Positions 10,289-13,953 of a stretch of 37,571 nt of DNA are shown here, one piece after another. Source of the stretch: Acidobacteriota bacterium (GTDB taxonomy: Bacteria; Acidobacteriota; Terriglobia; Terriglobales; Acidobacteriaceae). The notes below the pieces were generated by a model. The model had not been told where the DNA came from. It made no database searches and saw only the letters and a program-made list of their open reading frames with translations. Numbering within the stretch: position 1 is the stretch's first letter; the number at the start of each line of letters is the position of its first letter. The DNA lies in contig JABCYV010000016.1 of assembly GCA_013290025.1 (NCBI GenBank), positions 1 through 37,571 on the forward strand, given 5' to 3'. The position numbers were made by a program, and so were the translations under genes.

Positions 10289-10492
10289 TTACAGCGGACG
10301 AACGTTCTCAGCCTGCCAGCCCTTCGGCCCTTTGGTGACATCGAACTCCACACTCTGCCCCTCCTGCAAGCTGCGGAAACCGCCTGCCTGGATAGCCGAG
10401 AAGTGCACAAAAACATCTTCGCCACTCTGCCGGCTGATAAAGCCGTAGCCCTTGGCGTCGTTAAACCACTTTACTGTTCCTTGTTCTGCCAT
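10289..10492 (-). CDS. csp: cold-shock domain protein (CspA family)
   Basis: A 67-residue single cold-shock domain, an OB-fold RNA/DNA chaperone. It begins [19 protein letters not shown], which includes RNP1 (KGYGFI), followed by VFVHFSAI (RNP2) and the usual [15 protein letters not shown] ending. Length and motifs match the family. ATG 10492 is fixed by the family N-terminus; the frame is open upstream to 10606 but that extension is not protein-like. Downstream of the receiver gene there are 145 bp of AT-richer leader containing AAGGA about 13 bases before the ATG. A long leader fits the post-transcriptional control known for csp genes. Confidence 0.97.
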
Positions 10493-10641
10493 TTTGTTGC
10501 TTTGTATCCTTTTCGATTTATTTACGCTGAAAACAGTCGGAGGTACTAAGGGCAGGACTAGCTGGTTTGCAAGAAGCTGCTCACAACCGATTCTGATCAA
10601 ACGCACTTATAGTCTAGCAGAACCCGCGACTTAAGTGTTAG

Positions 10642-11096
10642 CTAAATCTGGTGGGTCTTCGCCAGGGCTTGCCCCACCTGACGTAGCAGAGATTCCGCCG
10701 AGAATGGTTTGGGGAGGTAGAAGACCCTGTTTGTTTGAGCCCTTTGCGGGTGACCGAGTTTTCAGGATAGCCGGAAATAAAGATTGTTCTCAGCCCGAGG
10801 CTCATGGCTTTGAGATCGTGGGCGAGGTTGAAGCCGTTTTGGCCGGGCATGACAACATCGGTGAGCAGAAGCTGCACTTCGTCGCGGTACTGGCGAAATG
10901 TGCGCATGGCATCGGCTGCGTTTCGAGCTTTCAGGACGCGATAACCTGCCGACTGCAGAATTTCGCCAGTTACGTCGCGGACAAAATTCTCATCCTCAAC
11001 TAGAAGAACGGTTTCCCGGGCCCACGCCCTTTCCGTACCCATCCCAATGGCAGGCGCTGTCCGATCCGTCTCTGACTTACGTTCTATCCATTGCAC
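10642..11096 (-). pseudogene. stand-alone response-regulator receiver, frameshifted near the C-terminus
   Basis: A CheY-like receiver: acidic pair (VLLVEDENFVRDV, residues about 35-36), phospho-acceptor Asp about 80 (LLLTDVVMPGQNG) and the switch residue in TIFISGYPENSVT. After GLKQTG the annotated frame reads an unlikely Ser/Arg/Trp-rich tail ending at 10638. The neighbouring frame reads VFYLPKPFSAESLLRQVGQALAK and stops at 10642, which is the expected end including the conserved Lys of LPKPF. One base has been lost, most simply a G from a GGGG run (plus-strand CCC at 10725-10727). Start GTG 11096 follows a strong GGAGGTGA. It is either a recent pseudogene, a sequencing error, or a frameshifted product lacking the Lys. 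No DNA-binding output domain or adjacent histidine kinase is visible. Confidence 0.85.
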
Positions 11097-11316
11097 GCTT
11101 CACCTCCAGCCTTGCGTCATTACTTTGCACTCCCGCTTCCATCCGGCGCCTGGCTTAATAAGTGTGGCTCACGAGTGCATCAGCAACGGGTTAGAACGCA
11201 GAGAGCCAACGCAGATCACTGTTGGGGAATGGGAAAGGAGAGAGATAGATGTCCTTTCGGGAAGGGCGCGGCGACGTTTCGGGAAATCTAGCCTGAAGTG
11301 GCGCTAAGCTCGACCG

Positions 11317-13953
11317 CTATCGAACTCGCACCAACAGAGTCTGATTAGGATCTAGTACGACCTTTTGGGTGCCTGCGGGGGCAGCCAGGTGGAACTGCGT
11401 CTCGGCTCCGTCTGCGAACACGCGTCCCAGCAATACCGTCTTCCTGGAGACTACCGCATAGACCGGAACCGACGTCACCAAGTCGTCCGAAGCGAACTTC
11501 TGCAGAATTGTGCCACTGACTACGGTCGAGTCACCCTTATCGCTGTACCTGGCTCCTTCCAATTCGAGCCGCGGAACCGCCGTACCATTCACCCATCCAC
11601 GGTAAAACCAGTCCAGCGATTTTCGTCCCTCATACCAGAGGGAGGGTGGCAACTCCTCTTCAAATACCTGCAGTAGTTCGCGGGTGCTGATCGATTTCCG
11701 CTGATAACGTTCCCTGACCTTTCGCAGTGCGCGCACGAAAGGCTCATCCGCCGCATCTGATCCCGCGACACCGGCGGTGTGCACTGCGCTTTTTCGCTCA
11801 GCATCACGCATCATGTAGCGCAACATGTGGAAAAGCCAAGTCCCGCGACCGTAACTGATGGCATCATAACCATTCGGAAAATGCGAGCAGGAAAGCCGCG
11901 CCCCGAAGGTCACTGGACCGGCCTCCATCAACGGGACACCGTCTAGATTTTTCTGCAGCAGCTCTTCCCTATATTTTTCCATAGCCGCGCGGAATTGAGC
12001 GGGATCTCGCGACTCCAGCAGCATCATCGAACTATAGTTCGCCAAAGCTTCCATCATCCATTGGTCGCTGTAGCCGCTCCACACCACTGTGTCACCCCAC
12101 CACTGGTGGGCAGTCTCGTGGGCGATTACCGCATTGCTCAAAGTTCTTTGCACTGGACTCATGTGGAGGTCGGATTTTTGAGCCGGGGTGAGAAACGAGA
12201 AACTGGAAAGGAAGATTAACCCCGGCCAGCCCTGGCTTAGGGCGCCCGGCATTTGCGTCAGGGCCAATTGACTGTATGGATATGGGCCGAAGCGCTGGGC
12301 GAAGAACTCGACGGCGCGTGCCGAAGTTTCCGCCACAGCTTGGGCGTTTCGGGCCGGAGAAGGTTCAGGTGCCGCGGCCACCACGGTTCGCCGGTGTCGG
12401 CGTAAGCCCGGAATCATTAGTTCCGGCTCAACTTCCTCCTCTACGCTTTTCGGAAATTCGCGCTCCATCCTCAAAGCAGCATAGGTCTCTACTAATACAC
12501 TGCCTGCGTATGCGGCCGCACGAGAATATTTGCCCAGGTTGAACCCCGCCAGCGGGATCGGACCGTCGGAGACCCAGCGGGTTTCTTGCTCTCTGGATGG
12601 CGATTCCGTGGATGCGCCCCCATTATCGCTGGCGACCGTCAGACGCGTATCTTGCCGCTTTCCTGTCGCAACTAACGTCCAGCCCGTTGGATAGCGAAAC
12701 TGGAGATCGAAGTTCGACATCGCCATTCCACGATTCGGATACCAGGTTCCACGGGCCCCCACATACAGCAATCCTCCTCCTGCCTCGGAAAGGACATCCC
12801 CGGCGTAGCGGAAGCGCAAAAGAATCTTCTGTCCGGTTTCCAGCGGTCTGGGAAATATCACAGCAACTAGATCGTTGCCACGGCGCTCCAGCTGCGTGCC
12901 CTCCAGCGCCTGGTTGTGGATAAACTCCAAAGTATGCCCGGCGGTCTCCACTGCTTTAATCTGGAGGAACCTCGACAACTCGAACAAAACCGCGCGCTGC
13001 CCTCCCTGGCGCACTTCCATTTCCAATGTTGCGTCGACGCTAAGTTCGGTTGGCGGTTTTACTTCTGTCTTGATCTTGTAGTCCGAAATATTGATCTTGT
13101 CTGGTTTACCTTCTTCCCCAAGAATACTATTCAGGTTGTCCTGGCGTGTTGCCGATGAAGCCGGCGAAAACAAAGTCCACACGTCGTAATAGCTGTCGCC
13201 TTTCACCGTTTTAAATTGTCCCGCCCAGATCTGCTCCGTCGCCGCAGAATCGAAATAAAGGTCGAAGTTGCCCAACTTCACTCCCTGCACGCGCGCGTGA
13301 AGCATGCGGTCGCCTTTTTGTTCGTCGCTTGCCGCTGATGGCGGCTTGGGTCCTTGGCCCGCGAAAGGGAGAAGCCGACTGAAGCTCATCAGCAATCGCA
13401 GTCCGTCACTTTCCGCCAGGTTGTGGGCAGTCTCATTCCATTGGGAAACGAATTCCGCGCCATTTTCTGCGGGCCGCAGCGAAGGTTGCAGTTCAGCGAA
13501 AGTATCATCATTAAAGCGAAAGTAAGCTGTACCAAATCGTTCTTCCAAAATGGCCGCGCCCGTAAACAGAGCCATGGACGCGCGTTCGACTCGGTTGGGA
13601 GGAATCAGCAGAATCTCGCCTTCTCCCTGAAAAAACGCGCCGGTCACGCGGCCCGCCACGTCTTCGGTGAACGCAATAGTTCCATCCTCCAGGGTGATGT
13701 GGAAGGCGGCGCGATCAAATGATGTCTCGCGGACCTGATAAACCCGTGACTTGTCCAGACCAACGCTGCACAATTGCCGGTAAAGAGTTTCAGCCGGATG
13801 ATCTGGCAACGCTGTCGCTCTCTGGAATGCGCTTTGACCGGGCACTCCGGATGGCCGGACGGCTTCTTGCGTCCAGCTCAGCGTCACTGCCGCCAGCGAC
13901 AAATACGCCATCGACAGTGTTGCTCCGCGAATATTCCTCGTTACCTTTGTCAC
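11317..13953 (-). CDS. exported M1-family (gluzincin) metallopeptidase-like protein
   Basis: An 878-residue protein with a signal-like N-terminus (MAYLSLAAVTLSWTQ). The zinc site is intact: HETAHQWWG, then 18 residues, then the Glu of QWMMEALANY, giving the M1 pattern HExxH-(18)-E. The downstream YGRGTWLFHMLRYMM matches the helix that carries the catalytic Tyr region. The exopeptidase motif GxMEN is absent: its place is taken by PGALSQGWPGLIF, so the Glu that binds a free N-terminus is missing and true aminopeptidase activity is uncertain. The first 300 residues are a long extra N-terminal region I do not recognise. It starts at GTG 13953 or ATG 13911 and is divergent from the TPR/gluzincin gene with about 40 bp between them. 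Confidence 0.9.
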   Translation of the reverse strand: MTKVTRNIRGATLSMAYLSLAAVTLSWTQEAVRPSGVPGQSAFQRATALPDHPAETLYRQLCSVGLDKSRVYQVRETSFDRAAFHITLEDGTIAFTEDVAGRVTGAFFQGEGEILLIPPNRVERASMALFTGAAILEERFGTAYFRFNDDTFAELQPSLRPAENGAEFVSQWNETAHNLAESDGLRLLMSFSRLLPFAGQGPKPPSAASDEQKGDRMLHARVQGVKLGNFDLYFDSAATEQIWAGQFKTVKGDSYYDVWTLFSPASSATRQDNLNSILGEEGKPDKINISDYKIKTEVKPPTELSVDATLEMEVRQGGQRAVLFELSRFLQIKAVETAGHTLEFIHNQALEGTQLERRGNDLVAVIFPRPLETGQKILLRFRYAGDVLSEAGGGLLYVGARGTWYPNRGMAMSNFDLQFRYPTGWTLVATGKRQDTRLTVASDNGGASTESPSREQETRWVSDGPIPLAGFNLGKYSRAAAYAGSVLVETYAALRMEREFPKSVEEEVEPELMIPGLRRHRRTVVAAAPEPSPARNAQAVAETSARAVEFFAQRFGPYPYSQLALTQMPGALSQGWPGLIFLSSFSFLTPAQKSDLHMSPVQRTLSNAVIAHETAHQWWGDTVVWSGYSDQWMMEALANYSSMMLLESRDPAQFRAAMEKYREELLQKNLDGVPLMEAGPVTFGARLSCSHFPNGYDAISYGRGTWLFHMLRYMMRDAERKSAVHTAGVAGSDAADEPFVRALRKVRERYQRKSISTRELLQVFEEELPPSLWYEGRKSLDWFYRGWVNGTAVPRLELEGARYSDKGDSTVVSGTILQKFASDDLVTSVPVYAVVSRKTVLLGRVFADGAETQFHLAAPAGTQKVVLDPNQTLLVRVR

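Follow-up and report, generated by a model that had tools for sequence, protein, structure and literature searches.

The single-domain response regulators (CheY-like, PF00072) are the family closest to the gene described here. The gene shares their fold family, acid pocket and acceptor Asp, and in many relatives it has cheB, mot or flg genes as neighbours, whereas the copy in question lacks β5, the conserved Lys and α5 through a frameshift. A second class for comparison is that of young bacterial pseudogenes formed by one-base deletion, which carry one lesion, have intact orthologues and retain an alternative frame that is still conserved. The present gene likewise has one lesion, a conserved neighbouring frame and intact orthologues in the relatives examined; however, it adjoins a rearrangement junction and is known from the assembly alone. 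A third comparison is offered by Osp of Rhodobacter sphaeroides, a single-domain receiver without the Lys, which is reported to inhibit CckA, also lacks the Mg-binding acid residues and is an adapted regulator (PMC9430884). The β5 Lys is missing from both proteins, whereas the Lys loss reported here is seen in one assembly only and is accompanied by an unrelated tail. Among the best 25 of 59 NCBIfam matches of the receiver (CckA-type hybrid kinase REC domains, a histidine-kinase subfamily, CpdR), all lie far below cut-off and thus no named subfamily fits.

The window, i.e., the whole stretch of 37,571 nucleotides that was analysed, is C16:1–37571 and probably the entire contig, as its length lies between those of C15 and C17; it belongs to an Acidobacteriota genome (hereafter G000) whose assembly comprises 4.9 Mb in 327 contigs and is 82% complete; the number of contigs and the longest one seen (65 kb) suggest that it was assembled from short reads. 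The ORF list, its translation and Pfam place a receiver (Response_reg), read in one frame as 152 aa and probably a pseudogene, on the minus strand at 10638–11096, with GTG as the start codon. Directly 5′ of this GTG lies GGAGGTGAAGC (11097–11107, minus strand), the putative ribosome-binding region, which is the same in the sister genome G001, the only other genome of the same genus among the relatives searched; GGAGG precedes the start in both. The ORF matches PF00072 with 57.4 bits (cut-off 30.2), only over profile positions 1–90 of 111, and the sister orthologue (162 residues in one unbroken frame) covers positions 1–110. By the residue roles known from the receiver literature, the ORF keeps the acid pocket and the phospho-acceptor Asp as well as an SG(Y) motif, and has lost β5, the Lys and α5. 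The window has no Rfam match at gathering thresholds.

The first-pass annotation of this DNA had claimed a one-base frameshift in the receiver gene, and this was borne out by comparison with the sister. In tblastn, the single-frame sister orthologue splits over two frames of the window, residues 1–129 matching in one and residues 126–148 in the other (83% identity, E 2e-6 for the second piece). The break point of the reading is a GGG run on the minus strand (plus-strand CCC, 10725–10727), and the pairwise DNA alignment from the GTG start to the end of similarity contains a sole gap, of one base, at this run, where the window has one base fewer than the sister; the alignment places the lost base to a short stretch at the G run, not to an exact position. 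Relative to the orthologues examined, this is where the frame is broken. After GLKQTG, the first frame continues as SSTSPNHSRRNLCYVRWGKPWRRPTRFS, from which the conserved Lys after β5 is missing. The neighbouring frame (10642–10725, minus strand) reads VFYLPKPFSAESLLRQVGQALAKTHQI, ends at a stop codon at 10644–10642, and is the only one of the two in which the Lys is found. Against a profile of 16 syntenic orthologues, the neighbouring-frame ending scores 29.9 bits vs. −3.3 bits for the first-frame tail, and its match to a receiver ending is more than chance. The true 3′ end of the receiver, with the conserved Lys and the stop at 10642, thus lies where the first-pass annotation had put it. That annotation had also described a Ser/Arg/Trp-rich tail of 30 residues after GLKQTG; the tail is indeed out of place, but it has 28 residues.

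To find orthologues, 300 genomes belonging to the family were searched, with at most 12 candidates scored in each; receivers at E ≤ 1e-22 turned up in at least 108 genomes, the window's own included. Thirty receiver loci, the window being one of them, were examined, and an orthologue was called syntenic if an M1-peptidase gene lies directly upstream on the same strand. This holds for 16 of the 29 non-window loci; the other 13, beside which no M1 gene was found, were left out of the count. In the window, the corresponding neighbour is an M1-family peptidase gene (PF01433) at 11317–13953 on the minus strand. An alignment of orthologues had been proposed as a check on the frameshift, and in it all 16 syntenic orthologues run in one frame to the receiver end with the Lys present (one, L182, with unreadable bases inside the gene) and none shares the Ser/Arg/Trp tail. 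As in a pseudogene, then, orthologues are intact and the lesion is confined to the G000 lineage. In the 13 left-out loci, most of which are parts of larger proteins, the receiver sequence likewise ends with the Lys. As an observation in its own right, the order M1 peptidase followed by a stand-alone receiver on the same strand recurs in 16 genomes of the family, the sister among them, and some of these have no rod-protein match (loci L163, L165–L172, L174, L176–L179, L182 and L188, with 11317–13953 and 10638–11096 as the window pair).

Recent inactivation, an assembly error and a programmed slip had all been offered as explanations of the break. Programmed frameshifting or transcriptional slippage would yield the receiver in two forms, one short and one full, and it would account for a neighbouring frame that is intact and conserved; moreover, an upstream stop in that frame confines any slip to about 12 codons. 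However, the codons at the site (CTC AAA CAA ACA GGG TCT) contain no canonical heptamer of the X XXY YYZ type, and usual slippage needs a run longer than three bases. The shift is found in none of the 16 orthologues, i.e., there is no conserved shift site. Nor is the out-of-frame tail kept: the sister frame that matches it reads PFIYLNRFRPNLCCAR and meets a stop after 16 residues. We regard slippage as very unlikely, and this part of the earlier proposal is unsupported.

Another reading takes the truncated protein itself as functional, namely as a pseudo-receiver that binds a kinase without phosphorylation. Atypical single-domain receivers without the β5 Lys do exist, e.g., Osp (PMC9430884). 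However, the new tail fails to match the orthologue profile, and the window protein keeps the acid pocket and the phospho-acceptor, so that it does not look like a receiver that adapted long ago to working without phosphorylation; we consider this reading extremely unlikely. AlphaFold2 models, for which the alignment comprised two sequences, were of too low quality for use, with a mean pLDDT of 43.9 for the window ORF and 50.3 for the sister orthologue.

The surroundings of the gene are altered as well. The receiver adjoins a cold-shock protein gene (PF00313; 10289–10606, minus strand), which in the sister lies on another contig. By BLAST, similarity to the sister's receiver contig stops at 10675 (a looser alignment extends it to about 10658), and similarity to the sister's cold-shock-gene contig starts at 10647; BLAST and alignment against these two contigs place a rearrangement junction at the receiver 3′ end (10642–10675). 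The cheB gene of G000 is found on contig C46, beside a stretch that in the sister sits upstream of the cold-shock gene. Compared with the sister, two junctions are therefore exchanged, one in the window at about 10642–10675 (receiver/cold-shock) and one at about 10414–10604 of locus L197 on C46 (cheB/response-regulator-like gene), a pattern that fits an inversion or exchange. Because the breakpoint lies at the receiver 3′ end, the last residues of the receiver (THQI) differ from those of the sister. A misassembled receiver/cold-shock join was considered as the whole story and rejected, both exchanged junctions being found in G000 (C16 and C46); a chimeric assembly at this join is formally conceivable.

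A convergent cheB comes next after the receiver in the sister, where it is broken, and in seven relatives, where it is full-length (G066, G070, G074, G106, G129, G166 and G276). Because the receiver–cheB order is common to the sister and these seven relatives, the gene order of G000 is probably derived, a polarity judged from the receiver–cheB side. Some other relatives have only cheB remnants or motB in the place after the receiver. G022 has a receiver of this type that adjoins motA- and motB-like ORFs, and the stretch examined there shows no M1 gene next to it. Rod-protein genes lie within about 25 kb of the receiver on the same contig in G022, G074, G101, G129 and G166. Placement among flagellar and chemotaxis genes, as for CheY, is accordingly found in relatives and not in the window.

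Decay is seen in the former neighbours. The G000 cheB is in three frames through two one-base losses, and the sister cheB is broken once, into two frames, at a different place from the G000 breaks; therefore, the breaks in the two genomes are independent. In the seven relatives, cheB aligns in a single frame over 356–362 residues. Beside the G000 cheB lies an ORF of 316 aa in which a rod-protein N-terminus (Flg_bb_rod) is joined to an OmpA/MotB C-terminus. We read this fusion as the probable scar of a flagellar deletion, and the stretch L197:8401–10434 on C46, with the fusion followed by cheB in three frames, as what appears to be a collapsed flagellar locus. Rod-protein matches number one in G000 (the fusion itself), none in G001 and five in G022; among the 16 genomes with a syntenic receiver, eight have 2–10 each. 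FliG_C was found in neither of the two genomes of the genus (G000 and G001) and in seven of the 16 other genomes searched. With assemblies that are 82% and 85% complete, the absence of FliG and rod proteins from G000 and G001 is weak evidence alone, and the fusion scar is direct; judged from their sequences, both genus genomes examined seem to have lost the flagellar/chemotaxis locus.

Loss of the flagellum alone does not doom the receiver, since half of the 16 syntenic orthologues stand intact in genomes that gave no match to rod proteins. Of these eight genomes, G081, G093, G106 and G276 are at least 90% complete; the remaining four are incomplete, and G062 among them still has motB. A purely flagellar role is weakened by these intact receivers, and a strictly flagellar function of the receiver in motor control, as for CheY, appears doubtful.

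The age of the break can be judged from substitutions relative to the sister. The 95 codons before the break carry 30 synonymous and 20 replacement differences, and the 23 codons after it carry 13 and 4, respectively. When the 20 pre-break differences (in 97 columns) are polarized, 4 are window-derived, 9 are sister-derived and 7 are unclear; the pre-break part is evolving no faster in the window than in the sister. In the orthologue alignment, none of the 23 post-break positions has a residue unique to the window, i.e., constraint has not been relaxed after the lesion. At fourfold sites, the two genomes differ by 51% (61 gene pairs, 8,212 sites), and about 20 post-break replacement changes would be expected if this part had been unconstrained over the whole branch; no window-unique change was seen. 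As a rough estimate, which assumes equal branches and a simple correction, the break dates from about the final 15% of the branch, unless it is not real. Since there is no decay after the break, a real lesion would have to be very recent.

The same lack of decay bears on the remaining explanation, an assembly or consensus error. Here the organism's receiver would be intact, a G having been dropped from the consensus of this apparent metagenome-assembled genome, or a minority-strain deletion having entered it. A still conserved post-break reading and a pre-break part without relaxation are what such an error would leave, in an assembly that is 82% complete and in 327 contigs, and other genomes that lack a rod-protein match still have unbroken receivers. 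In addition, each of the three cheB breaks, of which G000 has two and the sister one, is the loss of a single base in or next to a short G run. However, the G run in the receiver has only three bases, and the broken cheB in the separately assembled sister together with the flagellar scar indicates a biological decay of the gene set.

The frequency of frame breaks in the assembly also argues against a general error. A frame scan, which detects only breaks that leave two matching pieces, covered a sample of 1.27 Mb of G000 and 0.47 Mb of G001: 132 G000 genes were compared with sister DNA (37,340 aa aligned), and 162 G001 genes were compared with G000 DNA (45,834 aa, some counted twice through overlapping loci). 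G000-side breaks were confirmed in the receiver and cheB only, and a weak pair (L259/L161; 24 residues at 54% ahead of a strong match) is a further candidate. An earlier raw scan had given 8 and 6 frame-changing pairs in the two directions, and three of the 8 were the receiver itself, seen via overlapping loci. Several other raw pairs were set aside as antisense to a better-supported gene, as judged from coordinates only, and a DNA-level check identified L044/L138 as a stretch before a gene start. At L042:15450/L145:1876, the same kind of check showed a one-base length difference near a gene 3′ end, apparently on the sister side. There is no general frameshift excess in the compared part of G000, and a single isolated error is possible; we hold an assembly error to be a serious alternative that is, on balance, rather unlikely. 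As a separate observation, about 45 bases at L040:5100–5250 match many dispersed sites of the sister genome and perhaps belong to an interspersed repeat family.

Thus, we favour as the likely explanation, though with clear room for doubt, a genuine and very recent pseudogene of a CheY-like single-domain receiver, in a lineage that is losing chemotaxis and the flagellum. Among the explanations first offered, recent inactivation is best supported because the ancestral cheB and flagellar neighbours are also broken, deleted or moved in G000, although such neighbour decay is circumstantial as evidence for loss of the receiver. On the assembly, we see the frame break, the intact orthologues, the altered gene order, a cheB in pieces and the flagellar remnant, and FliG gave no match; we infer that the organism truly lacks the base, that its product has no activity and that selection was relaxed once the partners were lost. 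The ancestral order would have been M1 peptidase, receiver, convergent cheB and mot/flg genes, with the receiver at the edge of the flagellar/chemotaxis locus. Flagellar genes would have been deleted in the G000 lineage, and a rearrangement would have moved receiver and cheB apart and given the receiver different final codons. Two one-base deletions would have arisen in cheB and one in the receiver. The latter would remove β5, the conserved Lys and α5, and with these gone the product should not act as a phospho-switch. By itself this means little, being one young (or apparent) pseudogene of an ordinary kind; its use is as an example of how what looks like an isolated homopolymer error becomes meaningful when the ancestral gene order around it is rebuilt from relatives.

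The receiver may also serve a second function, possibly in connection with the neighbouring M1 peptidase, which we note as a lead. A search of one limited literature collection returned nothing on the flagellar-loss and peptidase–receiver ideas. More specifically, the M1 peptidase and the receiver could form a pair that is conserved in the family and persists after the flagellar locus is gone, with a non-flagellar task of the receiver tied to the peptidase, a proposal that we consider speculative and improbable. If it were true, G000 would be a natural knock-out of the receiver half only of the M1–receiver pair.
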